From Caenispirillum bisanense (GTDB lineage: Bacteria; Pseudomonadota; Alphaproteobacteria; Rhodospirillales; UBA2165): a stretch of 64,000 nt of DNA. The position numbers were made by a program, and so were the translations under genes. The notes under the pieces are model-generated. The model did no database searches. It was not told the origin of the DNA and saw only the letters and a program-made list of their open reading frames with translations. Position 1 is the stretch's first letter, and each line of letters starts with the position of its first letter. Shown in pieces: positions 9,148 to 49,340 of this stretch. The stretch is taken from positions 1 through 64,000 of the forward strand of contig CAMDWJ010000021.1 in NCBI GenBank assembly GCA_945877815.1, in the 5' to 3' direction.

Positions 9148-9273
9148 CTTCAATCATAAAACGACAATTTTGGTTGTTTTTTGTCAAGCCGCTTTGTAAA
9201 TCCGAACAAAGCCGTTCGCGATAGACTCATGAAAAGCGAACAGCCGGTTCGTAAAAGTTACGGGGAGAAGCAG

Positions 9274-12158: not shown

Positions 12159-12159
12159 T

Positions 12160-33530: not shown

Positions 33531-36164
33531 TTATCGCTGCCCTTTTGCAATCGGCCAGCGTTCCAATAACAGCGGCAGCACGGTCAGCGAACAAATCAAC
33601 GTCAGCAGGATCGAAACCGTCAGCAAGATACCCATGCTGGCGGTTCCGGGATGATCGGACAGCGCCACGGTCCCGAACGAGGCGATGGTGGTCAACGTCG
33701 AGAAGAATACGGCGCGCGGCGTTGATGTTTCGCTCACGCCGAGCGTGCTTGCTGCGCTCCGCTCGCGCAGCACTAAGTGAATTCCAGACGCGATGCCGAG
33801 CCCGAACAGCAAAGGCAGTACGATCACATTGGCGAAGTTGAACGGCATATCGAACAGGACCGAGATGCCTGCCGTCAGGATCGCGGCGAGGAACAGCGGG
33901 ACATAGATGAAGAGGATATCGCGCCAGCGCCTCAGCAGCGCGAAGGCCAGGATGGTGATGGCGGCGAACGACCACAGGCCGGCTTGGACGAAGGCGCGCA
34001 CGACCGCGTCGCCGGCTTCGAGGATGGTGACAGGCGCACCAGTGGCATGGGGGGCGAGCGTACGCACCTCCTCGACGAAAGCGCGGAGTTTCTCGCGGTC
34101 GCGCATATCGTCCTTTGGGTTCACCTCGATCATGGTCTGCCCGTTGATCGCGACCTGTCGGCTGCGTAGGGCAGTGGGGATCATGTCGAGCGTGATCTGG
34201 GTCGGTTCCAAAGTGTCTTTAAGCTCTTGCAGTCGCGCGGGAAGGGAGCCGGTCAGGGCGCGATCGAGCGCCGCCAATGCCTTCGGGTCGAGGCGCGATT
34301 GGGTCGAGAACGCCGCGATCGATGTGAGCAAACCTTGGGCCGCTTGGGCCATGGGCGCGTCTTTATTCGCCTCCACATAACGCACAATTGTGCGGCGTAG
34401 CCCGGCGATGGCGGCAAGGCGTTCTTCGTCGGTGGCCTGGACGCGGATAGGCGGCGTCGACAGTGCTGGCAACAAGGTGAAAGCGGCCGATTCGATCAGG
34501 GCGATCTTCTCGTCCTGATCCACCGGTACGTAGTTGCTGAGCGTCGTCGCATCTTCGACCAGCGGCAGCTTTCGCAGTTGTGCGGCCAGATGATCGGCCG
34601 TGACGAGATTGTCGGCCAATATTTCGATCGTATAGGGGCCGGTATTGCCCGCATCCATCATGTCCTGGATGGTTTTGATCGACTCGCTTTTGGGATTGCG
34701 CAGGTTCATCGGATCGAAGTCGAAACGGACATTGGGGACCAGGAACAGGCTGACGAGCGCGAGCGCACCGATCACCATCGTCCCGGGCTTGGCGAGGCGG
34801 TGGAGATCCCAACCGCTTTTCTCGGTGGGCGGGACGCCAAGCGATGCCTTGCCCGGCCAGATCGCCAATAGTGCAGGCAGAAGTGTGAGATTGGTGAAGA
34901 GCGCGATAAACATGCCGCCGGCCGCGATGATGCCGAGTTCGGCAAGCCCGCGGTAATCGGTCGGCACGAAAGCGAGAAATCCGATGGCTGCCGTCGCGGC
35001 CGACAGCGCAAGGGCTCCGCCGACATCGGCCGCCGATATGGCGAGGCTTTTGTTCCGGGCCTCGCCCAGACGTATTTCCTCGCGATAGCGCAGGCAGAAA
35101 TGGACGCCGAAATCCTCGCCCAATCCAATGAACAAGATGGCGAAGGCAACCGAGATCAAATTGAGTTCGCCGACCGAGACGGCGGCCCATCCGGCAGTCA
35201 GGACCAGCCCGACGAACAGGGTAATTAAGGTGGCGCCCACCAGTACGCCGGAGCGCATGCCCCAGGCCAGTAGGGCGCCGACAAGCACGAAGGACAGTAG
35301 GCTCGCCAATCCCATATTCGTGCGCAGGGTGTCGAGCTCGTCGTAATCGATGGCGACCGAGCCCGTCAGCCGCACGCGGACGCCGAAGCGGGTCTCGATT
35401 TCGAGTTTGCGCGCAATCTCATGCACCAGATCGATGGCGTCGCCGCCGGGTGCCAAGGATTCGTAGTCCAGGCGGGGATGCACGAGGATGGTTCTGAAGT
35501 CCGGCTTGTCGGTTTCGGCTGCGTTTGCGAAAAGTTTGCGCCAGAACAGCGGGCTCGGTTTGCCCGCGGCCTCTCCATCGATGGTTTTTCCGATTTCGGC
35601 GAATAGATCGGTTGTAGCTTTCGCGCCGCCGCCGCCACTTTCGCTGCTGCCCTCGGTCAGGATCAACTCAATGGTCGAGAATAGGCCGACGAGGGTCGGG
35701 TCGTTCCAGAGTTTGCCGAGGAAGGGTTGTGCCGCAACCAGGCGGTCGAGCAATCCCGAGAGATCTTCGGTGTTTTTGTAGAGCAGGCCGTTCTTGCGAA
35801 ACAAAGGCTCGGCCGCCGGATCGAAGGCTTCGCCCAAGACCGCTTCATGCTTGCGCAATTCCGCCAGCAGAAGCTCGGCCGCGTCGGCCAGTCGGTCGGG
35901 ATTGCGGCCATCGAGAACGACGGCCATCGTGGCGGACGATTGCGGGAAGGCCTTGTCGAGAGCGATCGCATTCTGGCGGAACGGTAAATCCGCCGACAGC
36001 ATGTCGTTCGAGTCTGTATTGATGCCGAGATTGCGGGCGACATAGAAACCCACCGCTACTGTGGCGACCAGCAGGATCGGCACGACCCAGCGCGCCCGCA
36101 ACGTGACCTGCGCAACCCACCATCGCGCGATTCGTCCGGCTATATCAGTATGTTCGGAGGACAT
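33531..36164 (-). CDS. hpnN: Hopanoid transporter HpnN (RND/MMPL family)
   Basis: HpnN (877 aa from the ATG at 36164) is an inner-membrane RND-type transporter needed to move hopanoids to the outer membrane. Two repeats of one helix, a large periplasmic loop and five helices are visible, with the SSD-like motif FIGLGEDFGVHFCLRYREE near residue 340-360 and a counterpart LLFGLGIASGIHLVLRER near the end. The first loop includes the GINTDSNDMLS segment typical of HpnN. Its 3' end converges on the acyl-CoA dehydrogenase gene. It is divergent from phnW, so the phosphonate module starts right beside it. Confidence 0.92.
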   Translation of the reverse strand: MSSEHTDIAGRIARWWVAQVTLRARWVVPILLVATVAVGFYVARNLGINTDSNDMLSADLPFRQNAIALDKAFPQSSATMAVVLDGRNPDRLADAAELLLAELRKHEAVLGEAFDPAAEPLFRKNGLLYKNTEDLSGLLDRLVAAQPFLGKLWNDPTLVGLFSTIELILTEGSSESGGGGAKATTDLFAEIGKTIDGEAAGKPSPLFWRKLFANAAETDKPDFRTILVHPRLDYESLAPGGDAIDLVHEIARKLEIETRFGVRVRLTGSVAIDYDELDTLRTNMGLASLLSFVLVGALLAWGMRSGVLVGATLITLFVGLVLTAGWAAVSVGELNLISVAFAILFIGLGEDFGVHFCLRYREEIRLGEARNKSLAISAADVGGALALSAATAAIGFLAFVPTDYRGLAELGIIAAGGMFIALFTNLTLLPALLAIWPGKASLGVPPTEKSGWDLHRLAKPGTMVIGALALVSLFLVPNVRFDFDPMNLRNPKSESIKTIQDMMDAGNTGPYTIEILADNLVTADHLAAQLRKLPLVEDATTLSNYVPVDQDEKIALIESAAFTLLPALSTPPIRVQATDEERLAAIAGLRRTIVRYVEANKDAPMAQAAQGLLTSIAAFSTQSRLDPKALAALDRALTGSLPARLQELKDTLEPTQITLDMIPTALRSRQVAINGQTMIEVNPKDDMRDREKLRAFVEEVRTLAPHATGAPVTILEAGDAVVRAFVQAGLWSFAAITILAFALLRRWRDILFIYVPLFLAAILTAGISVLFDMPFNFANVIVLPLLFGLGIASGIHLVLRERSAASTLGVSETSTPRAVFFSTLTTIASFGTVALSDHPGTASMGILLTVSILLTLICSLTVLPLLLERWPIAKGQR

Positions 36165-36303
36165 GTTCCGCACTAAGCCATGAGGGGCTTGGATGTGGCA
36201 AGGCCTCTCGGGGTGGTCATGGCCCGGTCGATGATCCTTTGCTATGGTCCGTTCCCATTGAGCCCATACGACCAGCACCGATGCTGGACCAGAGTAGGAA
36301 AAA

Positions 36304-37425
36304 ATGAACGTTCCTTTGTTGCTGACGCCGGGGCCCCTGACCACATCCGGCAGCGTGAAGCGCGCCATGCTGCGCGATTGGGGTTCGCGCGATCAGGGCT
36401 TCATCGCACTGACCGCGCGGGTGCGCGCCGCACTTGTGCGGATCGCGGGCGCCGATCCGGAGGAAGGCGTCTATTCCTGCGTGCCGATCCAGGGTAGCGG
36501 TACATTTGCCGTCGAGGCGACGATCGATACGCTGGTGCCGCGCGGAGCCGCGGTGCTCGTGCTGGCGAACGGCGCGTATGGCGAACGCATTGCGAAGATC
36601 GCCGAACGCCTGCAGCGAACATGCACAATCTATCGGACCGAGGAAACCGAACCGCCGTCGCCCGCCGATATCGACAAGCTGCTGCAGGACGATCCGGCCC
36701 TATCGCATATCGTCATGGTCCACTGCGAAACCACGGCCGGCATCCTCAATCCGTTGGCCGAGATCGCCGAGGTCGTATTGCGCCACGGACGCGCCCTGAT
36801 CGTCGATGCGATGAGTTCCTTTGGCGCCTTGCCCATCGATGTTACCCGCCTGGGCCTGACGGCAGTGATCGCTTCGTCCAACAAATGCCTGGAAGGCGTG
36901 CCCGGCATGGGGTTCGTGATTGCGCGCACGGACGCGCTGCGCGCGGCGGAGGGGAACGCCGTCTCGCTCAGTCTCGATCTCGCCGAGCAGTGGCAATATA
37001 TGGAAAAGACCGGGCAATGGCGTTTCACGCCGCCGACCCACGTGTTGGCCGCCTTCGATCAGGCGGTCACGGAATTCGAGGAAGAAGGGGGCGTCGAAGG
37101 GCGTGGTCGGCGCTATGCCGAGAATTGCCGCGTGCTGGTCAACGGCATGACGGCGCTCGGCTTCGAGCCGCTGCTGTCGCACAACCTGCAAGCCCCGATC
37201 ATCGTGACCTTTCGCACACCCGCGGATCCGAACTACGAGTTCGAGCGTTTCTATAATGCGTTGCGTGCGCGCGGCTACGCCATCTATCCGGGCAAACTGA
37301 CCAAGGCCGATTCTTTTCGCATCGGCTGCATCGGACGAATCTATCCGAAGGACCTCGAGGGGGCGATCGCCGCCGTCAAATCGGTCGTCGAGGAAATGGG
37401 TATCAAGAGACTCGGGAAAGCCTAG
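36304..37425 (+). CDS. phnW: 2-aminoethylphosphonate aminotransferase
   Basis: PhnW (373 aa) is a PLP enzyme that interconverts phosphonoacetaldehyde plus alanine with 2-aminoethylphosphonate (AEP) plus pyruvate. The start LLLTPGPLTTS, the PLP-interacting Asp168 (IVDAMSSFG) and Lys194 (SSNKCLEGVPG) are diagnostic. In degradation PhnW is normally next to phosphonatase (PhnX); here it is beside phosphonopyruvate decarboxylase and PEP mutase, so it most likely works in the biosynthetic direction. Its stop codon overlaps the decarboxylase stop on the other strand (CTAG). Confidence 0.93.
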   Translation: MNVPLLLTPGPLTTSGSVKRAMLRDWGSRDQGFIALTARVRAALVRIAGADPEEGVYSCVPIQGSGTFAVEATIDTLVPRGAAVLVLANGAYGERIAKIAERLQRTCTIYRTEETEPPSPADIDKLLQDDPALSHIVMVHCETTAGILNPLAEIAEVVLRHGRALIVDAMSSFGALPIDVTRLGLTAVIASSNKCLEGVPGMGFVIARTDALRAAEGNAVSLSLDLAEQWQYMEKTGQWRFTPPTHVLAAFDQAVTEFEEEGGVEGRGRRYAENCRVLVNGMTALGFEPLLSHNLQAPIIVTFRTPADPNYEFERFYNALRARGYAIYPGKLTKADSFRIGCIGRIYPKDLEGAIAAVKSVVEEMGIKRLGKA

Positions 37426-38561
37426 GTTTTCGCCAGGAACGCCTTGAAGCGCCGCGCGACTTCCGGCGGTTTCACGGTCGGGCGGCCGAGCGGGTTGAGC
37501 GAGCCCGCCGAAATCTTCACGCGGATTAGATGCGGCCCCTCGGACCCGCGTGCCGCCGCCAAAGCTTCCTTGAAACCGCCCGTCTCGTCGCAGGTCCAGG
37601 CGGTGCGATAGCCGCAAGCCTGGGCGATCACCGCGAAATCGATATTCGGACTGACGGTCGCCTGGCCGCCGGTCGAATCGTGCATGCCGTTGTCGAGCAG
37701 AAGATGGATTAGGTTGCGCGGGGCATAGGCGCCGATGGTCGCGAAGGTGCCCATCTTCATGAGGGCCGCACCATCGCCGTCGAGCACCACGATTGGTTTG
37801 TCGCTGTTGAGCGCCACGCCGAGGCCCATGCCGGCAGCGCAGCCCATTGAGCCGACTTGATAGATATGCTGTTCGCGGTCAGCCAGGGTGAACAACTCGC
37901 GCCCGCATTTTCCTGTCGTCGCGATGATGCCGGTTCGCTCGTCGACGGCTTTCAGCAGTTCTTGGAGGATTTCGAAGCGTGGCGGCTGGGCCTTGCCGGT
38001 GGCGAGGTCGTATTCCGCACCGATCGGGCGCTTCGCCGGAGCCGGCGCCTCGAGCTTCGAATCGGCTACGGTGTCCTTTTCCATGATCATGCCGAAGGGT
38101 AGGTCGGTTTCGGCCATGACCTTTTCCGCAGCGTCGAGCAGGGGCGCCACTTCCTCCGCCATGCGCGGAAAGGTCATGCAGCGCACGCGCACCAATTCCA
38201 TCATGGATTGGGTGATTTGGCTCATCAGTTCGTGCTGCGGCTCGTCGGCGATGCCGGGTTGCCCGCGCCAGGTCGTGATCAGCAAGGTCGGGATGCGGAA
38301 CGGAAAATTGAGCGAGGTGAGCGGATTGATGCAATTGCCGAGGCCGGAATTCTGGCACATCACGACAGTCTTGCGGCCTGCGAGCCAGGCGCCGGCGGCG
38401 ATCGCGATCGCTTCGCCTTCGGAAGCCGCGCCGACATAGTCGGTCATGTTCGAGCTGATCGCCCGATTGATGAAGGGGGTTAGGAACGAGCAGGGTACGC
38501 CGGTATAGAAATCGTATCCGCGCTGATGCGCGGGCACGATGAAATCGTCAGCTTGGATCAT
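37422..38561 (-). CDS. Phosphonopyruvate decarboxylase
   Basis: The enzyme (379 aa from the ATG at 38561) is a ThDP-dependent decarboxylase that turns phosphonopyruvate into phosphonoacetaldehyde, the step that pulls PEP mutase forward. Characteristic segments are YTGVPCSFLTPFIN at the N-terminus, the active Glu in AASEGEAIAIAAGAWLAGRK, and the ThDP motif GDGAALMKMGTFATIGA...LLLDN. It shares the strand with the PEP mutase fusion downstream of REP-like hairpins. The enzyme is known as AepY/Ppd in other clusters. Confidence 0.92.
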   Translation of the reverse strand: MIQADDFIVPAHQRGYDFYTGVPCSFLTPFINRAISSNMTDYVGAASEGEAIAIAAGAWLAGRKTVVMCQNSGLGNCINPLTSLNFPFRIPTLLITTWRGQPGIADEPQHELMSQITQSMMELVRVRCMTFPRMAEEVAPLLDAAEKVMAETDLPFGMIMEKDTVADSKLEAPAPAKRPIGAEYDLATGKAQPPRFEILQELLKAVDERTGIIATTGKCGRELFTLADREQHIYQVGSMGCAAGMGLGVALNSDKPIVVLDGDGAALMKMGTFATIGAYAPRNLIHLLLDNGMHDSTGGQATVSPNIDFAVIAQACGYRTAWTCDETGGFKEALAAARGSEGPHLIRVKISAGSLNPLGRPTVKPPEVARRFKAFLAKT

Positions 38562-38582
38562 CGGAATCCCCCTAATATCGTC

Positions 38583-38606
38583 ATGCCCGGGCAAGGACCC
38601 GGGCAT
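38583..38606. repeat. REP-like hairpin
   Basis: ATGCCCGGG and CCCGGGCAT form an exact 9-bp stem around CAAGGA, just upstream of the decarboxylase gene. It belongs to the same short palindrome family as the paired elements at 38706-38837 and 41442-41542. Confidence 0.7.
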
Positions 38607-38705
38607 CCATCTTAACTGTGCCGCAGGGTAAGAAGCTGGATGGCCGGGTCAAGCCCACTGCCGTCCGGCTTAAAATGTTTCCGGGCGGCATAAAATAGGT
38701 CCGTC

Positions 38706-38837
38706 ATGGCCGTACTTGTTACGGCCATCCACGAATCGGTGAGCGGATCATGCAGGCGAAACCGAGTATCCGCGCTCCCGCGGCCTTTTCGCGCTACTGC
38801 GCTTTTGTCCGTGGATGCCCGTAACAAGTACGGGCAT
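38706..38837. repeat. Paired REP-like hairpins (BIME-like element 1)
   Basis: Two hairpins lie in opposite orientation: ATGGCCGTA-CTTGT-TACGGCCAT (38706-38728) and ATGCCCGTA-ACAAG-TACGGGCAT (38815-38837). One is roughly the reverse complement of the other, and CCACG/GTGG borders them on the inside, as in bacterial interspersed mosaic elements. No gene is visible from 38562 to 38893. Confidence 0.75.
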
Positions 38838-38893
38838 CACGGCGGAGTTTAAACGGCACAGCCACGACGAAGCTCGGCCATGACCGATGAGCG

Positions 38894-40555
38894 TTACAGG
38901 AATTTCTGGGCGTTTTCGAGATCGGTGGCGTTGTCGACGTCGAGCCAATGACCGGTGACGTAAAGTACGCGGACATCGGCGCTGCCCGCGACCAGCCGGC
39001 TGAACAGCATGTTCAGATCGGCGCGGTCGAGGCTTCCCTCGGCGCGCATGGCGGCGAGCTCGGCTTTCACTCGTTCGGCGCCCTTGGCCGATAGCTTGGC
39101 GAGACCGATCCATTCGCCGTGCACGTTGTCTTCGTCGAGATCGCGCCCGATGCGTTGCACCGTGACCGGGCCATCGTCGAGATAGTGGGTCTTGAAGGCG
39201 CGCGAGCCTTGAACAAGATCGCGCACGTGGCTATGCGGATCGGGATCGCGTTCGCGCCACAATGCATCGACGGCGAGCACGATATCGCCTTCGGATTCGA
39301 TCAGCAGCGGCAGGATATAGTGGCGGAATAGGATGTCGCCGTAGGAAAGAACACACTCGCCTTTGAGGAACTTCTCGGCGCAGGCCAAGGTCGCGGCTTC
39401 GCCGGTGACCATGTAACGGTCGTTATCGACATAATCGATCGACGGAAGGTTCACGGTTTCCTTCTTGTAGCCGCGCACCACCGCGATCTCGCGGATTTTT
39501 TCCTCGTTGAGAGTCGATACCATGCGGCGCAGCAGGGGCTGGCCACGGATGTCGATCATGCATTTGGGGTGATGTTCGGTCAGTCCGCCAAGCTCGTTGC
39601 CGCGCGACGCCGCGAGGATGATGGCGCGTGGGCCGGATTTCGTGGTCGGAAGGTAGCGTTTTTCGGCCTGGGCAAGTTCATCGTTCTCGGCCAGACGGAA
39701 AATATCATCCACCGTCGCGATCTCGTCTTCGACGCCGCCGAGATATTGTTCGCGCTGAATACGGCGCGACACTTCGCGCATCGCGGCGATGGAGGCTCGG
39801 ATATTGTGGTTCGCCCAGATGACGACCGAGGTCTTGGCGTCGCGGAACTCCTGGGTCGGCGTTTTGTAATAGGTGGTCGGCACGATGACGACCGGCGACC
39901 GGTTTGCCCATTCCTTGAGGAAGGTCAGGATCTCCTGCGCGTCGCGTCGCTTGGAATGGATCAGGATGCCGTCGGCGCCGGCCTTGCGGTAGGCCTCGGC
40001 GCGCTTCAGCGCCTCTTCCATGCCCCAGCCTGAGATCAAAGCCTCGACCCGCGCGACGATGGAGAAATCGGGATCTTCCTGGCTGTCCTTGCCGGCTTTG
40101 ATCTTGCCGCAAAACTCGTCGATATCGGCGAGCGGCTGCCCCTCGCCGATGAAGGAATTGGTTTTGGGGAACAGCTTGTCTTCGATGCAGATGCCGCCAA
40201 TGCCGCGTTGGCACAGTTTCTGGACGGCGCGGCGCATATTGTTGAAATTGCCGTAGCCGGTATCGCCATCGACCAGGATCGGAATCTTGGTGGCGTCGGC
40301 CATGAATTCCAGGACTTCCAGAACCTGGGTCCACGACGCCTCGTTGCTGTCGCGCACGCCGAGTGCGGCGGAAATCGACAGACCCGAGGCCCAGATGCCC
40401 TTGAAGCCCGATTCCTCGGCGATTTTCGCCGAAATGCCGTTATGGGCTTCCATCAAGAATTCGGTTTCGGCCGAGACCAATAGCTCGCGGAGCTGGCGGA
40501 ACTTGCTCGGTGCCGGCTGCGGAATCGGGGTCGTCTCGCTTTTGATAGCGCGCAT
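38894..40555 (-). CDS. PEP mutase fused to a nucleotidyltransferase (PepM-PntC type)
   Basis: The protein (553 aa from the ATG at 40555) has two domains. Residues about 15-290 are phosphoenolpyruvate phosphomutase, which makes the C-P bond of phosphonopyruvate; VDGDTGYG (95-102) and the diagnostic [10 protein letters not shown] (125-134) are present. From about 305 to the end is a nucleotidyltransferase ([20 protein letters not shown], then SYGDILFR and [11 protein letters not shown]). Such fusions are known for PntC, which makes CMP-2-aminoethylphosphonate for phosphonolipid or phosphonoglycan synthesis. The open frame continues upstream without supporting homology and overlaps the PhyH gene. 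Confidence 0.92.
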
Positions 40556-40639
40556 TAAGTAATCTACCGGATTTGCTTCGGCGGGAAATTCGACTATTTT
40601 CCCCCAAGAATCCAGCGAAAACAGCGAGATAACCAGAAC

Positions 40640-41398
40640 ATGCTGCACGCACCGGTTCTGACCAAGGATCAAATCGATAGTTTTCACCAGAACGGCTATG
40701 TCTTCGTGCCGGGCGCATTTGCGCCCGCGGAGGCGCATATGCTTGATGTTTGGGCCCGCGATCTCGCCGAACGGCCCGAGCAGGTGGGCAGTCATTGGGT
40801 CTATCACGAGCCGAGCCTGCGGGGTGACGGAACCCAGCTCATCAATCGTATCGAGAACATGACCCCGTTCCATGCCGGCTACCGCAATCTTGCCGAATCG
40901 TTGCGCGCAGGGATCGGCCAGCTGCTGGGCGAGGAAGCCGTCCTGTTCAAGGACAAGATCAATTTCAAGATGCCGGGCGGCGATGGTTTCAAACCGCATC
41001 AGGACGCCCAAGCGGGATGGGAAACCTATGCCCGTTATTATATCAATGCGATGGTCACCATCGACGAGGCGACCAGCGAAAACGGCTGCCTAGAAGTAGC
41101 CAAGCGGCCGGACGCGAAACTGGTCGGCAACGAGTGGGAACCGCTGACCATCGAACAGACGGCATCGATGGATTTCAAAATGCTGCCGACCAAGCCGGGC
41201 GACGTGCTTTATTTCGACGCCTACGTGCCGCATCGCTCCGAGCCGAACACCAGTGACAAAATCCGCCGCATCTATTTCGCGACCTATAATCGCCTGTCCG
41301 AAGGCGACTTTCTCGAACGCTATTACGCGGACAAGCGCCAGAGCTTTCCGCCCGATATCGAGCGGATTGCCGGCAAGGAATACGTCTACCGGGTTTGA
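40640..41398 (+). CDS. PhyH-family Fe(II)/2-oxoglutarate oxygenase, PhnY-like
   Basis: The enzyme (252 aa) belongs to the phytanoyl-CoA dioxygenase family. The metal site is His120-x-Asp122 (KPHQDAQ) with distal His198 (YVPHRSEPN), and Arg210 probably binds 2-oxoglutarate. PhnY, which hydroxylates 2-aminoethylphosphonate at C1, is in this family, and the neighbours make AEP, so hydroxylation of AEP or of an AEP-bearing product is likely. It is divergent from the PEP mutase fusion with 84 bp between starts, suggesting one shared control region. The exact substrate is inferred. Confidence 0.85.
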
Positions 41399-41441
41399 CG
41401 CGCGGGGCGGCAGAGACTCGGACTCCAAAAATAGGTTCATC

Positions 41442-41542
41442 ATGGCCGCACTTGTTGCGGCTATCCACGGTTAGAGGCGCGTCCGCGCCGATGTGATGAT
41501 TGCTGTAACTTCGACGTGGATGCCCGGACCAAGTCCGGGCAT
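41442..41542. repeat. Paired REP-like hairpins (BIME-like element 2)
   Basis: ATGGCCGCA-CTTGT-TGCGGCTAT (41442-41464, one mismatch) and ATGCCCGGA-CCAAG-TCCGGGCAT (41520-41542, exact) reproduce the arrangement of element 1 in the same order. The two elements therefore flank the PEP mutase and PhyH genes. Confidence 0.75.
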
Positions 41543-41766
41543 GACGACCCATAGTAAATATAAATAATCCCCGTTTAATTGGAATTATTTTCTTGACTCG
41601 CGTGGGCCGTCCGCGTTAGACTGACCGCCATTCATTGCCTTCGAAGTCTCTGCATCGCACAGTTCCGAAACTCGGACGGTGCGTGTGGGGGAGATTCTGT
41701 CCGGGCCGGTCTAAGAAAAAGAAATGTCGATTGGGTGTTTGGTTCCTGTCGATCGCCGGACTATCG

Positions 41767-41843
41767 AATGTCGATCCGATGTCGATGAAATGTCGATGCG
41801 ATGTCGATCCAATGTCGACGAGATGTCGGCCCGATGTCGATGT
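41767..41843. repeat. Seven tandem 11-bp repeats
   Basis: Seven consecutive units of the form (G/A)ATGTCGATCC occupy 41767-41843, each exactly 11 bp with only the last few bases varying. The array lies between the convergent PhyH and nucleotidyltransferase genes. The rest of 41543-41882 holds no convincing gene. Confidence 0.85.
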
Positions 41844-41882
41844 ATCGGAACAAAAATATCGCGAAAATCTTGGATTTTTGGA

Positions 41883-42638
41883 TCAGCGGGTTCCGATTTT
41901 CTCGATCGAGGGCAGGACGATGTCGCGCGCTTTGGCGACGTCTTCGGGAAAATCGATCTCGATCCACGGAAGATCTGTCACGTCGCAGATGCCGAAGGTG
42001 CCGGACGGCTGGCCGCGTACCAGATCGCGGACCGCATCCTCCATCGGACGGTTGCGCCCTCCTGCTGACACGAAATGATCGAGCCGGTCGGCAAGTTGGC
42101 CGGCAATCGTCGGTGTCAGTTTCAGGAAGCCGACCCATTCGCCGAAGCCATCAAAGGTGTCGCTGACGATCTTGCCGAACTCGGCCGGGAACCCGCCCTG
42201 CAGGCAGATTTTAACCGGTTCATCGCCGGGCTCGATGTCGCGATCGTAGAGCAGGCAATTCGGTATGGCCGTGCGGACCAAGCGTCCCAATACATCGGGG
42301 TGATACAGAACATCTGCGTCCATGAAGATCACCTCGGCGCCGCTTCGCAGCACGTCGCGCGCGCACCAGAGCGACACCGCGCTGCCCTCGCGGTAATCGG
42401 GATTCTCGACGAAGCTCACGAAGCGGTCGTGATCGAGCTTGCGGATCGCGGCCTGCAATTCCTCGGCATGATAGCCGACGACAAGTGTCAGGCTCGTGAT
42501 GCCGACGCTTTTCATGGTGGCGAGATGGCGTTCGATCAGCGTCTTGCCGCCGAATTCCAGCAGGCTTTTCGGTTTGGCGGTCGGGTCGCCGCCGAACAAA
42601 CGTTGACCAACACCGGCCGCGAGCATGATTGCGTGCAT
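41883..42638 (-). CDS. Nucleotidyltransferase (LicC/PntC-like)
   Basis: The protein (251 aa) is a stand-alone NTP transferase. It opens with MHAIMLAAGVGQRL, has a lysine-bearing KPKSLLEFGGKTLIERHL segment, and the metal-binding FMDADVLYHP, as in enzymes that activate sugar-, choline- or aminoethylphosphonate-type substrates with CTP or another NTP. Its ATG overlaps the hpnA stop (TGATG), so it is translated together with hpnA. This links it to hopanoid side-chain work or to the phosphonate module. Which donor and acceptor it uses cannot be told from sequence. Confidence 0.85.
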   Translation of the reverse strand: MHAIMLAAGVGQRLFGGDPTAKPKSLLEFGGKTLIERHLATMKSVGITSLTLVVGYHAEELQAAIRKLDHDRFVSFVENPDYREGSAVSLWCARDVLRSGAEVIFMDADVLYHPDVLGRLVRTAIPNCLLYDRDIEPGDEPVKICLQGGFPAEFGKIVSDTFDGFGEWVGFLKLTPTIAGQLADRLDHFVSAGGRNRPMEDAVRDLVRGQPSGTFGICDVTDLPWIEIDFPEDVAKARDIVLPSIEKIGTR

Positions 42639-43624
42639 CAGATATATCCGTTGTCTTTGAACCAGCGCAGCGAATCGGCGATCGCGTCCCGTGCCGGGCG
42701 CGGCGCGTAGCCCAGTTCGCGTTTAGCCTTTTCGGAGCTGTAGAACATTTTCTTTCGCGCCATTCGCGCCGCATCACCGGTTGCCATCGGCTCGCCGCCG
42801 AATAGCCGGCACCATGTTTCGGCGATATAACCGATCGGGATCGTCACCGCGTGGGGCAGCCGGATCGTCGGCGGCTTGCGGCCGACCAGTTCGGCGATGA
42901 TCGTCAGCAATTCGCGCAAGCTGAGGTTCTCGCCACCCAGAATATATCGCTCGCCGATTTGGCCTTTCTCGAACGCCAGCAGATGGCCTTCGGCGACATC
43001 GTCGACATGGACGACATTGAGACCGGTATCGACATAGACCGGAATTTTGCCCTTGGCGGCATCGACCACGATTCGTCCCGTCGGGGTCGGCTTCGCGTCG
43101 CGCGGACCCATCGGAGCCGAGGGATTGACGATCACGGCGGGGAGACCTTTTTCGGCGATGCGCCGGGTTACCTCGGCCTCGGCCAGGAATTTGGACCGCT
43201 TGTAGAGCCCGATCATCTGGGCGGACGAGGCCTGGACCGATTCATCGGCCGATTCGCCGTTCGGCCTGGGTAGGATCGCGGCCACGCTGCTGCAATAAAC
43301 GATTCGGCTGATTCCAGCGGCTAAGGCGGCATCCATGATATTGGCGGTGCCTGCGATATTGCTGTCCAAAAGTTCCTGTGGCCGCGGTGTCCAGATCCGG
43401 TAGTCGGCGGCGACATGGAATAGGGCGTCCATGCCGCCGAGCGCGCGCGCCAGGGAAGCCGGGTCGCGCAAGTCACCGATGCAGGTTTCGACCGGCAAAT
43501 CGGCGATATTCCCTAGGTTGCTGGTCGGCCGGACCAGGACCCGGACCGAATGACCTGCGGTCAGCAGGCGTCGGGCGACGGCGGCGCCCACAAATCCGGT
43601 CGCACCAGTGACGAGCGTCCGCAC
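42638..43624 (-). CDS. hpnA: Hopanoid-associated NAD-dependent epimerase/dehydratase HpnA
   Basis: HpnA (328 aa) is an extended short-chain dehydrogenase. The N-terminal VTGATGFVGAAVARRLL motif binds NAD(P), and the YKRSKFLAE (Tyr-x-x-x-Lys) motif near residue 143-150 is catalytic. Family members acting on nucleotide sugars or dihydroflavonols are the nearest analogues. Its function in hopanoid-making bacteria is not settled, but it is a standard part of hpn loci. It is divergent from ispH, and its stop overlaps the start of a nucleotidyltransferase gene. Confidence 0.93.
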   Translation of the reverse strand: MRTLVTGATGFVGAAVARRLLTAGHSVRVLVRPTSNLGNIADLPVETCIGDLRDPASLARALGGMDALFHVAADYRIWTPRPQELLDSNIAGTANIMDAALAAGISRIVYCSSVAAILPRPNGESADESVQASSAQMIGLYKRSKFLAEAEVTRRIAEKGLPAVIVNPSAPMGPRDAKPTPTGRIVVDAAKGKIPVYVDTGLNVVHVDDVAEGHLLAFEKGQIGERYILGGENLSLRELLTIIAELVGRKPPTIRLPHAVTIPIGYIAETWCRLFGGEPMATGDAARMARKKMFYSSEKAKRELGYAPRPARDAIADSLRWFKDNGYI

Positions 43625-43714: not shown

Positions 43715-44692
43715 ATGCAAGAGCTTACACCGATTCGCGTCATTCTGGCGCAACCGCGCGGATTCTGCGCCGGCGTTGAACGTGCCATCGAGATCGTGGA
43801 GCAAGCTCTTTCGATTTTTGGCGCGCCGGTCTACGTGCGCCATGAAATCGTCCACAACAAGCGCGTCGTCGAGACCCTGAAAAAGAAGGGCGCTATCTTC
43901 GTCGAGGAAGTCGAAGACATTCCCGATGGCGGCGTCACGATCTTCAGCGCGCACGGAATATCCGAGGCTGTCGAAAACGACGCTAAGCGCCGTTGCCTGC
44001 CGATCATCGATGCGACCTGTCCGTTGGTCTCGAAGGTCCATAAGGAAGGCCAGAACCATGCTGCGCGCGGCCGCGATGTCGTCCTGATCGGCCATGCCGG
44101 CCATCCCGAGGTCGAAGGCACAATGGGCCGTATCCCTGGCGGCGTGCATCTGGTCACCAAGACCGCCGATGTCGAGACGCTTGTCGTCGGCGATCCCGAG
44201 AACGTCTCCTACGTCACGCAAACCACCCTAAGCGTCGACGATACCCGCGAGATCATCCGGGCACTTCAGGCGAAATTCCCGAAGATCGTGGGCCCCGACG
44301 TGCGCGACATTTGCTACGCGACCCAGAATCGCCAAACGGCGGTCCGCGATATCGTGCAGGCGGTCGATCTTCTTCTCGTCGTGGGCGCGCAGAACAGCTC
44401 GAATTCCAATCGCCTGCGCGAGATCGGCGCGGAGATGGGCGTTCGCAGCTATCTCATCAACGACGCGCGCGAGCTCGATCCGAAATGGTTGGAGGGTGTC
44501 GAGACGGTTGGCGTGACGGCCGGTGCTTCGGCACCGGAAGAATTGGTTCTCGAATTGATCGAGAAGCTGAAAAGCTATCGTACGGTGACCGTGGAAACGG
44601 TCGTCGGGGTCCAGGAAAACGTGCAATTCAAATTGCCTCCCGAATTGATGGAAGCCCGATCGAGCCCACGTGCGCTCGCGAGAAGGAGCTGA
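43715..44692 (+). CDS. ispH: 4-hydroxy-3-methylbut-2-enyl diphosphate reductase
   Basis: IspH (325 aa) is the last enzyme of the MEP pathway and forms IPP and DMAPP. The three cysteines that bind its iron-sulfur cluster are in [10 protein letters not shown] (Cys18), [11 protein letters not shown] and [10 protein letters not shown], and the [10 protein letters not shown] and [13 protein letters not shown] segments are characteristic. It lies in the hopanoid locus and is followed at once by hpnH, whose ribosome site overlaps the ispH end. It supplies precursors for squalene made by the neighbouring genes. Confidence 0.96.
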
Positions 44693-44694
44693 AC

Positions 44695-45834
44695 GTGGCC
44701 GTACCTTTGATGCAACAAGCCCGGGTCGGGGCCTATCTCCTCAAGCAGAGGCTGAAGGGCGTCGAGCGCTACCCGTTGGTGCTGATGCTCGAGCCGCTGT
44801 TCCGCTGCAACCTCGCTTGCCCCGGTTGCGGGAAGATCGATTATAGCGAAGCCATCCTCAACAAGCGTTTGAGCGTGCACGATTGCCTCGAAGCAGTCGA
44901 TCAATGCGGCGCGCCGGTTGTCTCTATTCCCGGCGGCGAGCCTCTGATCCACAAGGAAATCGTCGAGATCGTCGAAGGAATCGTTGCGCGCAAGAAGTTC
45001 GTCTATCTGTGCACCAACGCGCTGCTGCTCGAAAAGAACCTGCATAAATTCAAGCCGTCGGTGTACCTCACATTTTCGGTCCACCTGGATGGCCTCGGCG
45101 AAGCACACGACAAGGCCGTCGCTCAGAAGGGAACCTTCGATCGCGCCGTGTCCGCGATCCGCGCCGCCAAGAAGGCGGGCTTCCGCGTGAACGTCAATTG
45201 CACCGTTTTCAACAATATGTCTTCGGACGAGGCGATCGAATTCTTCGATTTCTGCACCAACGATCTGCAAGTCGAGGGCATTACGGTTTCGCCGGGCTAT
45301 GCCTATGAGCGCGCCGAGGATCAGGGCCATTTCCTGACCCGCGAAACCACCAAGAACCTGTTCCGCGATATTTTACGCGCCGGCAAGGGTCGCAAATGGC
45401 GCTTCAGCCAATCGAGCCTGTTCCTCGACTTTTTGGCCGGCAATCAGGAATACAAATGCACGCCGTGGGGCAACCCGACGCGCAATGTCTTCGGCTGGCA
45501 GAAGCCTTGTTATCTGTTGAGCGAGGGCTACGCCAAATCCTTCAAGGAATTGATGGAAACGGTCGAGTGGAATAAATACGGCACCGGCGCCTACGAAAAA
45601 TGTGCCGATTGCATGGTGCATTGCGGCTATGAGCCGACGGCAGTCTCCGATACCTTCGCGCATCCGTTGAAGGCGCTGGGTGTCTGGCTGCGCGGTCCGC
45701 GTACCGATGGCCCGATGGCGCCCGAAATCGCGCTCGATAAGCAACGCCCCGCTCAATATGTGTTTGAGGATGTCGTGAAGCGCGCGTCAGAGACGGTTGG
45801 CGGCACCAACGACAACCGGAGCGACGCGGCGTAA
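44695..45834 (+). CDS. hpnH: Adenosyl-hopene transferase (radical SAM) HpnH
   Basis: HpnH (379 aa) joins the 5'-deoxyadenosyl group to diploptene, the first step to extended C35 hopanoids. The radical-SAM cluster motif CNLACPGC gives Cys38, Cys42 and Cys45, followed by SIPGGEPLIHKEI for SAM binding. The C-terminal part has the DUF3463-type cysteines (CTPWGNPTRN, CADCMVHCGYEP). The GTG at 44695 is chosen because GAAGGAG lies just upstream and the residues match the family start; the frame is open far upstream inside ispH. The last 48 bases overlap hpnG on the other strand. Confidence 0.95.
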   Translation: MAVPLMQQARVGAYLLKQRLKGVERYPLVLMLEPLFRCNLACPGCGKIDYSEAILNKRLSVHDCLEAVDQCGAPVVSIPGGEPLIHKEIVEIVEGIVARKKFVYLCTNALLLEKNLHKFKPSVYLTFSVHLDGLGEAHDKAVAQKGTFDRAVSAIRAAKKAGFRVNVNCTVFNNMSSDEAIEFFDFCTNDLQVEGITVSPGYAYERAEDQGHFLTRETTKNLFRDILRAGKGRKWRFSQSSLFLDFLAGNQEYKCTPWGNPTRNVFGWQKPCYLLSEGYAKSFKELMETVEWNKYGTGAYEKCADCMVHCGYEPTAVSDTFAHPLKALGVWLRGPRTDGPMAPEIALDKQRPAQYVFEDVVKRASETVGGTNDNRSDAA

Positions 45835-46458
45835 GCTCGCATGCGCGGCGCGCGCATAAGATGCCAGCCGCAAAAGCGCGAACAGATCCCACGGCCGACG
45901 GGCGAGTTGCCCGATCACACGTTTGATAACGGGGACCCCCGTCTCATCGACGGCGTGAAGAGCTGCGTCCGGTAGCCTTGCGTCGTGCGGATCGGCGATC
46001 GCGCGGACGGCAACGAAATCCAACCCTGCGTCTCGGGCGCACCGCGCGATGTGATGCGTCTCCATATCGACCGCACTTGCGCCTGTGCGTTGCTGCAAAA
46101 GGGCTTTGTCGCTCGGCGACGCAACTATCGTGCTACTGCCGGCAAGGCGGACGCCGCGCGCTCCGGGGATCGAGCGGATCAGCGCGTCGGTAAGTTCCTT
46201 ATGGGCCACGAAAGTTTGGCCGTCGGGTGCCACGACGGTTTCGACAATAATGATGCTGCCCGGAATGACACCCGCGGCGACGCCCCCAGCCAGTCCAAAA
46301 CTCACCAGCAGCTCGCAGCCCTGAGCGATCAGTTCGCGCGCGCATCGTTCGGCCGCAGCGGGGCCGATGCCCGCGGCGCGGAGGTTGGAGGGATCGATAA
46401 ACGGAATGAGGCAATCCGCCTCGCTGACCAGTCCGGTGATGAAGCCAGCTCGGGCCAC
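45787..46458 (-). CDS. hpnG: Adenosylhopane nucleosidase/phosphorylase HpnG
   Basis: HpnG (223 aa) releases adenine from adenosylhopane to give ribosylhopane. It has the nucleoside phosphorylase fold: LVSFGLAGGV phosphate/base region, DMETHHIARCA (a VDME-type motif that binds ribose) and FVAVRAIADPHDARLP near the end with the catalytic Asp. It is cotranscribed with shc (nine bases apart) and ends inside the 3' end of hpnH, so the two genes for consecutive steps converge on each other. Confidence 0.93.
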   Translation of the reverse strand: MARAGFITGLVSEADCLIPFIDPSNLRAAGIGPAAAERCARELIAQGCELLVSFGLAGGVAAGVIPGSIIIVETVVAPDGQTFVAHKELTDALIRSIPGARGVRLAGSSTIVASPSDKALLQQRTGASAVDMETHHIARCARDAGLDFVAVRAIADPHDARLPDAALHAVDETGVPVIKRVIGQLARRPWDLFALLRLASYARAAHASLRRVAPVVVGAANRL

Positions 46459-46467
46459 CTAGTCCCC

Positions 46468-48420
46468 TTAAATGCCGTATGCAGTCCGCTTGGAGTTGCT
46501 ATGCGTCAGGTTGCGGTAGCGCGAGAGCGCGAGCACCGGGAAATATTTCGCATAGCCATGATACCGGAGATAGAAGACCCGTGCGAAACCGACGGCGTTG
46601 TAGAGCCGTTCCTGCCAGCCGCTCTCGTCGGAGCGGGTACGCACCAGATAAACGATGCCGCGGCGCACGGTGTCCGAATCGACGCGTCCGGCCGCCATCA
46701 GCGCCAGCACGGCCCAACTCGTTTGGGATGGCAGCGGAGCGCAGGTAAGGTGCCGACGCTCGGGCCAATAGCTTTCGCACGATTCACCCCATCCGCCATT
46801 GGCCTGCTGTCTCGATTCCAGCCAATCGGCGGCGCGTTGGATATAGGGCTGGTCGAGATCTTCGCCGGCGGCATTGAGCGCGCTCAACACGGACCAGGTT
46901 CCGTAGACATAATTGGTGCCCCACCGTCCGAACCACGAACCATCGGATTCCTGTTCGCGCTTCAGAAACTCGATCGCCTGGCGGACGGCCGGGTGAGACC
47001 GATCGTAGCCGAGTTGCACCAGCATGCCGAGGCAACGGGCTGTGACGTCGGACGTGGGCGGATCGAGCAGGGCGCCATGATCGGCAAATGGAATATGGTT
47101 GAGCGCGTAGTGTTCGTTGTCGGCATCGAAGGCGCCCCAACCGCCATTAGCGGACTGCATGCCTAGAACCCAGTCGGTCGCTCGTGAGATAGCATCGCGA
47201 TAACGTTCCGCTCCGGCGCGGTGCAGCGCCATGACCACGACAGCCGTGTCGTCGACATCCGGATAATAGTCGTTGCGGTATTGGAAGGCCCATCCGCCGG
47301 GGGTGATGCCGGGTCGGCGCGAACGATAGTCGCCGACGACATTCGTGATCTGACGTCCGACGAGCCAATCGCAGGCTCGCTGGATAGAGGCCGGGACGTT
47401 CTCGCGCGATGATTCCAATAGGGCCAGCGAAGCAAGGCCAGTATCCCAGATGGGCGACAGGCATGGTTGGCAATAGGCTTCGTCGCCGTCGAATTTGAGC
47501 AATTTGTCGATCGCTTTGCGGGCGATCAGGACACGTGGATCGTCGGCCGGGTAGCCCAAAACACGAAAGGCCATTAGGGCATTCGCCATTGCGGGAAATA
47601 TTCCGCCGAGGCCGTCTTCGCCGTTCAATCGGAGGGTGACGAAATCCATCGCGCGGGCGATGGCCTTATTGGTGATCCAGCGTGGGATCAGCCGTTCGAA
47701 CGGACGGGCCAGAGCATCCAGCGCGATCAGGCTCGATCCCAGCCAATGGCCGGTCGGGTTGTGAAGGCGGAATCGCCGTGCGACGGGATCGGCGGGCATC
47801 AGTTCGTCGAGCCGAACGTTGCGCGGGTTCTTTGCGGTGGCTCGCAAAGCCGTCAGGACCAGCAACGGCACCATTACCGTGCGCGACCAATAGGACACCT
47901 TTTCCGTGTGCATCGGAAACCAGCGCGGCGCGAACATGATTTCGACCCGCATGACGGGAAGAGCGCTCTGCGGGATCAGACCGAAAAAGGCCAGCATGAT
48001 CCGTGTGAAGACGTTGCTGGCGGGCAGCCCGCCGAGCGCTAGGATATTGGCCCGCGCGTGCTGCATATGCGGCGCGTCGATATCGTCACCGACCATCTTG
48101 AGCGCCAGGTAGGCTTTAATCGAGGCGCTGGCATTCGCCTCGCCGTCCGGGAAAAGCGGCCAGCCACCGTCGGAGCCCTGAATGCGGCGGATATAGCGGG
48201 CGAGCTTTTGCTCGGTCGCATCGTCGATTTCGCCCAAGAAATGATTGAGGATCACGTACTCGGCAGGAATCGTCACATCGGCTTCGAGTTCGTAGGACCA
48301 ATGGCCGTCATCAGCCTGCTCGGAAACAAGATGCGTGCTCGCTCGATCGATCACGTCATCGACGGCGCTCAATAGTTCAAGGTCGGACGGCGACGCGTCC
48401 ATGGGGGTTTGATCTGGCAT
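46468..48420 (-). CDS. shc: Squalene-hopene cyclase
   Basis: Shc (HpnF, 650 aa) folds squalene into hopene and diplopterol at the inner membrane. The catalytic DVDDTAVV motif that protonates squalene is near residue 388, and several QW motifs are visible (e.g. QQANGGWGESCESYW, MQSANGGWGAFDADN, QGSDGGWPLF). Length is normal. It is transcribed after hpnD with 51 bases between and before hpnG. Confidence 0.97.
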   Translation of the reverse strand: MPDQTPMDASPSDLELLSAVDDVIDRASTHLVSEQADDGHWSYELEADVTIPAEYVILNHFLGEIDDATEQKLARYIRRIQGSDGGWPLFPDGEANASASIKAYLALKMVGDDIDAPHMQHARANILALGGLPASNVFTRIMLAFFGLIPQSALPVMRVEIMFAPRWFPMHTEKVSYWSRTVMVPLLVLTALRATAKNPRNVRLDELMPADPVARRFRLHNPTGHWLGSSLIALDALARPFERLIPRWITNKAIARAMDFVTLRLNGEDGLGGIFPAMANALMAFRVLGYPADDPRVLIARKAIDKLLKFDGDEAYCQPCLSPIWDTGLASLALLESSRENVPASIQRACDWLVGRQITNVVGDYRSRRPGITPGGWAFQYRNDYYPDVDDTAVVVMALHRAGAERYRDAISRATDWVLGMQSANGGWGAFDADNEHYALNHIPFADHGALLDPPTSDVTARCLGMLVQLGYDRSHPAVRQAIEFLKREQESDGSWFGRWGTNYVYGTWSVLSALNAAGEDLDQPYIQRAADWLESRQQANGGWGESCESYWPERRHLTCAPLPSQTSWAVLALMAAGRVDSDTVRRGIVYLVRTRSDESGWQERLYNAVGFARVFYLRYHGYAKYFPVLALSRYRNLTHSNSKRTAYGI

Positions 48421-48471: not shown

Positions 48472-49299
48472 TTAGCCGAAAATGAGCGATCGGGCGACCA
48501 ACGCATATCGACGCAATTTGGATCGCTTGAGGGGCGTCGAAATATGGTCCCATCCGCGCCGTTGCAAGCCATTCAGGATATCGCGATAGACGGCCTTCAT
48601 GACGAGTGCCGGGCGGACCGCGTTGCGATCACAGCGCGATATGATCGTTTCGGCCGCGGCGAAGCGTTCTTCGGCGATCGCCGCGATCTCGCGGCATACC
48701 GCCGCCAGCCCAGGTTGGTCGACCAGTTTCGCCGCATCTGTTGGGTCGCAATCGTGGCGGCGCAGAAGGTCGGCCGGCAGGTAGACATGGTCGCGCAAAG
48801 CGTCTTCGTGAATGTCGCGCAGAATATTCGTGAGCTGCAACGCTTCGCCGAGGTTCTTGGCGAGAGGCTGCGCCAGCTCGGACGGAATGCCGAAGACAGC
48901 GCACGATAGCCTGCCGACGGCGCAGGCGACCCGGTCGCAATAAAGTTCGAGTTCCGCCGAGTCGGCGATACGTAGCCGATCGACCGCATCCATTTGCATT
49001 CCGGCGATGACGGCATCGAAATCCGCGCGCGCGAATCCGAAAGTCTGGACCGGCGTCGCGAGGGCCTGGGTGACGAGGTGTGTCGGATTGCCGTCGTATA
49101 AGCGGTCGATCTCATCCTGCCAGATGTCCAATTCCTGAATCTTCCGGGTTGGCCTCTCTGGACCGTCGGCTATATCGTCGACCTCGCGACAAAAGGCGTA
49201 GACCGTGAACATGGCATTACGCTTGAACGGCGGAAGAACCCGCATGGCCCAATAGAATGACGTGCCGGATCGCTTGACGATCTGGGTGATCCGGGCCAT
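48472..49299 (-). CDS. hpnD: Presqualene diphosphate synthase HpnD
   Basis: HpnD (275 aa) condenses two farnesyl diphosphates to presqualene diphosphate. Both aspartate-rich motifs are present: DDIAD (41-45) and DIHED (162-166), with GTSFYWAMRVLP near the start. I give the ATG at 49299. A TTG at 49338, with GGACGAG upstream, would add 13 residues (LDDAISQLG...) that resemble the usual N-terminus and is a serious alternative. Longer frames upstream are antisense-like over hpnB. It follows hpnB closely on the same strand. Confidence 0.9.
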   Translation of the reverse strand: MARITQIVKRSGTSFYWAMRVLPPFKRNAMFTVYAFCREVDDIADGPERPTRKIQELDIWQDEIDRLYDGNPTHLVTQALATPVQTFGFARADFDAVIAGMQMDAVDRLRIADSAELELYCDRVACAVGRLSCAVFGIPSELAQPLAKNLGEALQLTNILRDIHEDALRDHVYLPADLLRRHDCDPTDAAKLVDQPGLAAVCREIAAIAEERFAAAETIISRCDRNAVRPALVMKAVYRDILNGLQRRGWDHISTPLKRSKLRRYALVARSLIFG

Positions 49300-49340
49300 C
49301 GGGTCGGCATGCCCGAGTTGCGAGATCGCATCATCCAAAA

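Follow-up and report, generated by a model that had tools for sequence, protein, structure and literature searches.

Several described systems resemble parts of the locus analyzed here, a block of phosphonate biosynthesis genes that lies within a hopanoid (hpn) locus of Caenispirillum bisanense, hopanoids being sterol-like lipids of bacteria. The sequence under study (the window) is a stretch of 64,000 nucleotides (GenBank assembly GCA_945877815.1, contig CAMDWJ010000021.1, positions 1 to 64,000), which forms part of contig C21 in a 3.98 Mb genome (G000). On the phosphonate side, the phosphonyl-tailoring (Pnt) pathway of Treponema denticola and A. rimae, as set out in the available part of its description (PMC6697681), shares with the block a phosphoenolpyruvate (PEP) mutase (PepM), a decarboxylase, a 2-aminoethylphosphonate (AEP) transaminase, and a cytidylyltransferase, PntC, whose T. 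denticola form (Tde-PntC) is matched in fold and catalytic residues by the second nucleotidyltransferase of the block (NT2). Unlike the Pnt genes, the block sits in a hopanoid locus and keeps a CDP-alcohol phosphotransferase as its conserved partner in place of LicD or glycosyltransferases; it also includes a PhyH oxygenase, and its PepM is fused to a second nucleotidyltransferase (NT) domain (such fusions are known). Rice et al. (2019) define PntC, and words starting with "hopan" are absent from that text (PMC6697681). On the lipid side, the CDP-ethanolamine (Kennedy) pathway, IPCT-DIPPS, and AF2299 likewise combine a cytidylyltransferase with a CDP-alcohol phosphotransferase; here, however, a phosphonate would be activated, by genes that form part of a hopanoid locus. 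The composite hopanoid pathway of HpnI, HpnK, and HpnJ, which yields bacteriohopanetetrol glucosamine and cyclitol ether, also places a head group onto bacteriohopanetetrol, and its cluster here carries transferases, but that head group is a carbohydrate without phosphorus.

Linkage of pepM to hopanoid genes is already in print for Acetobacteraceae. More specifically, a 2021 paper linked a hopene cyclase to PEP mutase in Roseomonas, including R. aerilata DSM 19363 (L141 in our set), and suggested an undiscovered terpene-phosphonate; the part of that source available gives gene linkage only, without transferase, HpnL, or co-occurrence analysis (PMC8776678). The family to which the window belongs differs from that linkage in gene order, with hpnN and hpnA at the block. 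In the literature searched, which covered few subscription journals, we found no account of the transferases, the identity of NT2, the order-wide tie, or the mechanism considered below, and no description of a phosphonohopanoid lipid class.

Open reading frames (ORFs) and curated family models place the block at 36304-42638, precisely between hpnN (33531-36164, minus strand; RND-type hopanoid transporter; TIGR03480, 936.9 bits, cut-off 752; start taken at MSSEHTD) and hpnA (42638-43624, minus strand; hopanoid-associated epimerase/SDR with its reaction unassigned; TIGR03466, 482.9 bits, cut-off 367.65). The gene content and coordinates proposed in an initial annotation, made from the sequence alone, are thereby borne out. 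The first gene, phnW (2-aminoethylphosphonate transaminase, 36304-37425, plus strand), scored 510 bits with TIGR02326 (cut-off 401) and was also above the cut-offs of NF010006 and TIGR03301. It is followed by ppd (phosphonopyruvate decarboxylase, 37422-38561, minus strand; TIGR03297, 418 bits, cut-off 312.5) and by pepM fused to the NT domain (38894-40555, minus strand; TIGR02320, 393.8 bits, cut-off 320; PF13714; PF12804; PDB 1m1b, E 1.7e-125). The PhyH-family Fe(II)/2-oxoglutarate oxygenase gene (40640-41398, plus strand; PF05721; NF052437, 172.1 bits, cut-off 500) and NT2 (41883-42638, minus strand; PF12804) complete the block, which is not a single operon, since phnW and PhyH lie on the plus strand and the remaining genes on the minus strand. 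The NT2 start codon overlaps the hpnA stop codon by a single base (TGATG), and the two genes are translationally coupled. Between PhyH and NT2 (41763-41842) there is a short tandem array with units of 11, 22, and 33 bp, of the ATGTCGATCCG type. The initial annotation had also stated that a degradative phosphonatase is absent, and this agrees with a TIGR01422 search of the whole genome, in which no phnX (PhnW-PhnX route) rose above the cut-off (best 55.1 of 220 bits); phnX was the only phosphonatase searched for, and other phosphonate-degrading routes were not searched.

The association of phosphonate and hopanoid genes is real and conserved, and no accident of one genome. It was assessed in 317 genomes of the order, many of them incomplete metagenome-assembled genomes (MAGs), with match thresholds of E 1e-90 for pepM-NT, 1e-60 for shc (squalene-hopene cyclase), and 1e-20 for the transferase. 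Under these thresholds, pepM-NT occurred in 76 genomes and shc in 181. Indeed, shc was present in 74 of the 76 pepM-NT-positive genomes compared with 107 of the 241 that lack pepM-NT, and the two exceptions were G176 and G022, the latter with a contig that stops within the hpn locus. Stratification by family, with family borders inferred from the order of our genome handles and some families pooled, gave a chi2 of 32.6; p values for this co-occurrence are overstated because the genomes are related. Within the family of the window, pepM-NT was found in 16, hpnA in 15, and hpnN in 17 of 24 genomes; all 15 hpnA-positive genomes carry pepM, and the 8 genomes without pepM-NT all lack hpnA, two of them (G004 and G013) retaining hpnN. 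The order hpnN, phnW, ppd, pepM-NT, PhyH, NT2, hpnA, ispH, hpnH, hpnG, shc repeats in this family as far as the contigs extend, with PhyH absent in L032 and L039 and with phnW and ppd separated by an additional ORF in L027. A broader order, hpnM-hpnL-T3-hpnN-T2-T1-(phnW)-ppd-pepM-PhyH-NT2-hpnA-ispH-hpnH-hpnG-shc, in which T1 to T3 denote transferase genes, was seen with gaps in this family (f1) and in other families. phnW was present in 71 of the 76 pepM-positive genomes, frequently apart from the block. Gene identities, neighborhood conservation, and co-occurrence with hopanoid genes are what can be read from the sequences themselves.

We then scored adjacency by a strict rule within the fetched stretch at the pepM loci of 75 of the 76 pepM-positive genomes, with the window included and G075 left out. 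pepM lay beside hpn genes in 35 of these 75 loci, namely the window, 14 of the 15 other loci in its own family, and 20 of 59 loci from other families. Named genomes were represented by the best 80 of at least 574 stretches encoding a relative (at least 594 stretches matched), and 21 of these 80 had hpn genes near pepM. Among them, other gene orders occurred in Roseomonas aerilata, another Roseomonas, Pararoseomonas indoligenes, Plastoroseomonas hellenica, Inquilinus limosus, a Sphingomonas, and a Phenylobacterium MAG. The gene-neighborhood comparison that the initial annotation proposed thus finds the pepM block adjoining hpn genes in related genomes, across several families and in other gene orders. 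A looser label, by which any match of 60 bits counted as an hpn gene, was dropped, as it took in weak matches (L134 and L137, hpnA at 26-29% identity; L178, hpnN at 27%); under the strict rule the named loci fell from 26 to 21 of 80, and the 14 of 15 and 20 of 59 did not change. In a FastTree phylogeny of 134 PepM proteins, hpn adjacency changes 9 times over the 87 scored rows (the flanks of the other 47 were too short to score), and the hpn-adjacent groups are separate. One record titled Mycobacterium sp. KBS0706 (L153) groups with Inquilinus limosus in this tree and has hpn genes in identical order; it is probably a mislabeled genome.

The relatives of the window also hold candidates for the step that would place a head group on a lipid. 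Between hpnN and phnW, all 11 of the other family loci read contain two CDP-alcohol phosphotransferase-like genes, T1 and T2 (PF01066 for the pair in L025), and a third, T3, lies beyond hpnN and adjoins an hpnL-like gene (182 bits, cut-off 196). In the window, T1 and T2 are absent from this interval (36165-36303), where ~1.46 kb of the congener G002 is replaced by ~140 bp according to a blastn comparison with L025, and a profile search gave no true transferase match anywhere in the window. An apparent T1 match at 36231-36524 was discarded, being antisense to phnW and stemming from an over-long ORF in L037. The genome of the window has two transferase matches on contig C9 and a weak third on C14. 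More specifically, positions 8376-14281 of L048 (C9, 58000-77999) comprise a second hopanoid cluster that reads T1-like, hpnK, hpnJ, hpnI, hpnL, T3-like.

Flanking of hpnI-J-K by two CDP-alcohol phosphotransferases was also found in other families. Of the 12 such clusters read, 10 come from pepM-positive and 2 (G058 and G076) from pepM-negative genomes, and transferases stand on both flanks in 11, the remaining one (L210) being cut at its start; this fraction is not the rate of transferase-flanked clusters, because all 12 were picked by transferase match. Where pepM lies in an hpn locus without T1 and T2 (G000, G065, and G082), transferases flank hpnI-J-K-L elsewhere in the genome; the clusters of G065 and G082 are among the 12. 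The transferase profile was matched in 73 of the 76 pepM-positive genomes and in 104 of 317 overall, 101 of these 104 with shc. T1 retains the complete motif DGxxARx8Gx3Dx3D, which we take to be the CDP-alcohol phosphotransferase signature, invariant in an alignment of 18 rows, and its model matches the AF2299 CDP-alcohol phosphotransferase with a TM score of 0.79 and also matches 4mnd.

The phosphonate enzymes agree with the early steps of an AEP pathway. PepM contains EDK-X5-NS, presumably the PEP mutase motif, and its EDK and NS are invariant in 12 rows. Ppd and PhnW, which the Pnt pathway requires for AEP formation, are present above their cut-offs (TIGR03297 and TIGR02326). Two cytidylyltransferase-like domains, NT2 and the domain fused to PepM, occur in the one pathway. 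NT2 reads GVGQR-X9-PK, a near match to the consensus GXG(T/S)R-X4-8-PK; the fused domain departs from that consensus, with AASRG...PKCM conserved in 12 rows. The AlphaFold2 (AF2) model of NT2 (predicted local distance difference test, 96.3) has Tde-PntC as its best PDB match (Z 31.2, 2.0 Å over 240 residues), followed by LicC (Z 25.7) and IPCT-DIPPS (Z 25.2), in a comparison that left 3 of 1000 chains unaligned. A profile alignment to 6pd1, read by eye, pairs NT2 Arg13, Lys24, and Lys156, invariant in 29 NT2 rows, with PntC Arg15, Lys25, and Lys153, alanine mutants of which kept <10% of activity according to the available part of the PntC study (PMC6697681). Regarding the glutamate pair near the AEP amine, PntC Glu196 corresponds to NT2 Glu200, and PntC Glu104 to NT2 Asp107, as in LicC. 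Since PntC is the best structural match and its catalytic residues are kept, AEP is the likeliest substrate of NT2 as modeled, and the CMP-AEP step proposed in the initial annotation gains support from both fold and residues.

For PhyH, methylphosphonate hydroxylase is the top-scoring NCBIfam model (172 of a cut-off of 500 bits), and PhyH proteins from three loci without a local pepM scored 156-167 bits with it. That the closest curated model is a phosphonate hydroxylase speaks for AEP as the putative substrate. PhyH in hpn loci could also be the hydroxylase that forms bacteriohopanepentol and -hexol; the enzymes for these lipids, found in Rhodospirillales and Sphingomonadales, were unknown according to the available part of a hopanoid survey (PMC12583986).

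Taken together, we propose that this locus supplies a lipid of the hopanoid system with a phosphonate head group, which it both synthesizes and activates; to this reading we give nearly an even chance. PepM would convert PEP to phosphonopyruvate, Ppd would yield phosphonoacetaldehyde, and PhnW would form AEP, which PhyH probably hydroxylates to 1-hydroxy-AEP. NT2, perhaps together with the PepM-fused NT domain, would then produce AEP activated with cytidine monophosphate (CMP-AEP), and a CDP-alcohol phosphotransferase (here, either of the pair encoded beside hpnI-J-K-L on contig C9) would move AEP from CMP to a lipid hydroxyl, the acceptor most likely being the polyol end of a bacteriohopanepolyol. 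The choline/ethanolamine phosphotransferase works likewise in the Kennedy pathway. HpnL and HpnN would handle and export the product. Every reaction in vivo, the PhyH substrate and, most of all, the acceptor are what we infer here. The initial annotation had suggested that a phosphonate head group is attached to a hopanoid or a co-exported lipid; the tie between the phosphonate and hopanoid genes has held, in co-occurrence, in synteny across several families, and in the other orders of other named genera, and the attachment stays a proposal. Its full form, in which a Kennedy-like route puts AEP or 1-hydroxy-AEP on the polyol tail of bacteriohopanepolyol to give phosphonohopanoids and relatives that have lost pepM, but retain NT2, PhyH, and the transferases, use environmental AEP in the same route, is a tentative one that we regard as possible but somewhat doubtful.

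A number of observations weigh against this proposal. Family f8 has shc in 10 of 11 genomes and pepM-NT in none by the order-wide search, so hopanoids can do without the phosphonate block. The fetched stretch contains no hpn gene in 40 of the 75 pepM loci, many of them cut short by contig ends. The Bacteriovoracaceae loci L170, L175, and L177 combine pepM with weak transferase matches (30-33% identity) and have no hpn genes nearby, hopanoid genes not having been searched in these genomes. In T2 (L025, 14247-14864), otherwise well conserved, the last Asp of the signature is an invariant Gly in 10 aligned rows; because this residue is missing, T2 may be altered or inactive, or is possibly a partner subunit. 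Among curated models, the four transferase proteins scanned come closest to archaetidylinositol phosphate synthase, though far below its cut-off, and homology to CDP-alcohol phosphotransferases, taken by itself, would fit several pairs of donor and acceptor alike. The survey of alphaproteobacterial hopanoids cited above (52 strains, 63 structures), whose strains were not checked for the locus, has "phospho" once in its text, within phosphorylase (PMC12583986).

Further points of this kind come from loci without pepM. Four hpn loci have NT2 and T1 and lack pepM (L191, from the 98% complete genome G104, L192, L193, and L196), two of them also keeping PhyH, and 31 transferase-positive genomes gave no pepM-NT match, 30 of these with shc. 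Transferases, NT2, and PhyH are therefore not phosphonate genes in the strict sense, unless these genomes scavenge AEP or have lost pepM lately. A looser search of those 31 genomes found that in-frame stops interrupt a pepM-like stretch in G028 and G030, and it recovered just the C-terminal part from G048 and G062, so that some pepM losses appear recent or reflect assembly gaps. In addition, ppd without pepM is kept in the hpn loci L190, L194, L195, and L197, and L189 bears the trace of a pepM loss, a 51-residue remnant beside ppd (12143-12295). Three genomes (G084, L205; G103, L201; G072, L206) have pepM elsewhere and NT2, PhyH, and T1 in the hpn locus. As they are retained where pepM is lost or lies elsewhere, the transferases, NT2, and PhyH seem to belong with the hopanoid locus, while the genes for the carbon-phosphorus bond come and go; the view of the transferases as purely phosphonate genes was rejected on the same grounds. 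Scavenged AEP would explain the loci without pepM. As a sign against its own reading, the initial annotation had named hpn loci lacking the module together with a module sited beside glycan genes. The former exist (L191, L193, L196, and the 10 shc-positive f8 genomes), as do the pepM loci without hpn genes, but a site beside glycan genes is not the rule and was rejected as such: the neighbors of seven sampled pepM loci apart from hpn genes (20 neighbor proteins, Pfam) were mixed, with possibly glycan-related ones in two.

The main rival to a hopanoid acceptor is that AEP passes from CMP-AEP to diacylglycerol, yielding a phosphono-analogue of phosphatidylethanolamine that would accompany hopanoids in the outer membrane as a bulk component and, because of that partnership, share their locus and exporter. 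We consider this unlikely, though it has real points in its favor, given that known CDP-alcohol phosphotransferases use diacylglycerol (the T2 profile matches one of them, CEPT1, 8gyw, with E 3e-5) and that the Bacteriovoracaceae loci join pepM to transferase-like genes away from hpn genes. Against it, only two of 76 pepM-NT-positive genomes in the order lack shc, and T1-like and T3-like genes stand on either side of hpnI-J-K, the genes of hopanoid glycosylation, in 11 of the 12 clusters chosen by transferase match, two of the 12 from pepM-negative genomes.

With CDP-diacylglycerol as the donor, the transferases might instead act on a hopanoid alcohol, which would give a phosphatidyl-hopanoid and leave the phosphonate genes to serve another product that shares the locus. 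Their best curated models, archaetidylinositol-phosphate and phosphatidylinositol-phosphate synthases (both below cut-off), and their persistence without pepM are consistent with such a donor. Nevertheless, this reading is improbable: among shc-positive genomes, transferases are far more common with pepM (71 of 74) than without it (30 of 107), and the PntC-like NT2 is located with them.

About as poor a prospect is decoration by AEP of a glycan or lipopolysaccharide, possibly a hopanoid-linked lipid A, by analogy with the phosphonoglycan clusters of other PntC systems. According to the available part of the PntC study (PMC6697681), surface phosphonoglycans and phosphonolipids are the predicted products of most phosphonate clusters, and, among our sampled loci, pepM lies near a GT41 protein in L102 and in an Asn-synthase/ABC neighborhood in L073. 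Against this, the ten proteins scanned around the block include no LicD-like or polysaccharide-export family, and the genes conserved alongside it are hpn genes and those for CDP-alcohol phosphotransferases. Finally, chance or hitch-hiking placement without a functional link, to which the 40 pepM loci lacking a nearby hpn gene might point, is very improbable and was rejected on co-occurrence and synteny, as the 74 of 76 holds also where pepM is elsewhere and the 9 adjacency changes on the PepM tree fall among separate hpn-adjacent groups.

Beyond hpnA, the remainder of the locus is that of a hopanoid producer, with shc, hpnC, hpnD, hpnH, hpnA, and hpnN all recognized in the window. On the plus strand, ispH (43715-44692; NF002188 and TIGR00216 above cut-off) is followed by hpnH (adenosylhopane synthase, 44689-45834, start approximate; TIGR03470, 542.1 bits). 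The minus strand carries an hpnG-like phosphorylase gene (45787-46458; TIGR03468, 174.5 bits, slightly below the cut-off of 187.1), shc (46468-48420; PF13243 and PF13249), and hpnD (presqualene diphosphate synthase, 48472-49308, the 3' part of ORF 48472-49977; TIGR03465, 320.6 bits, above cut-off), as well as the hpnB glycosyltransferase gene (49341-50522; TIGR03469, 503 bits, above cut-off) and the hpnC squalene synthase gene (50542-51444; TIGR03464, 251.7 bits, cut-off 250.45). Elsewhere, the window contains an IS21 family transposase (4150-5649; 269 bits, above cut-off) and an ABC transporter pair (9181-12158) whose best curated models, both below cut-off, are the putative 2-aminoethylphosphonate transporter subunits PhnT2 and PhnU2; uptake of AEP or of another substrate is possible.

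The route proposed here to a hopanoid or hopanoid-partner lipid that bears phosphorus is concrete and can be tested, with candidates named for the missing transferase step. The locus also offers a context for hpnA and hpnL, whose roles were not established as of 2025 according to the available part of the hopanoid survey, which looked next to hpn clusters and found no obvious candidate genes except hpnA, B, L, and M (PMC12583986). More broadly, our data suggest that alphaproteobacteria of a large and mostly uncultured group make a phosphonate-bearing lipid, either a hopanoid or a partner of hopanoids, that has yet to be described. Given that many carriers among the best 80 of at least 574 named loci are, judged by record titles, environmental and partly marine Rhodospirillales MAGs, such a lipid, if real, could be an overlooked biogenic phosphonate pool.

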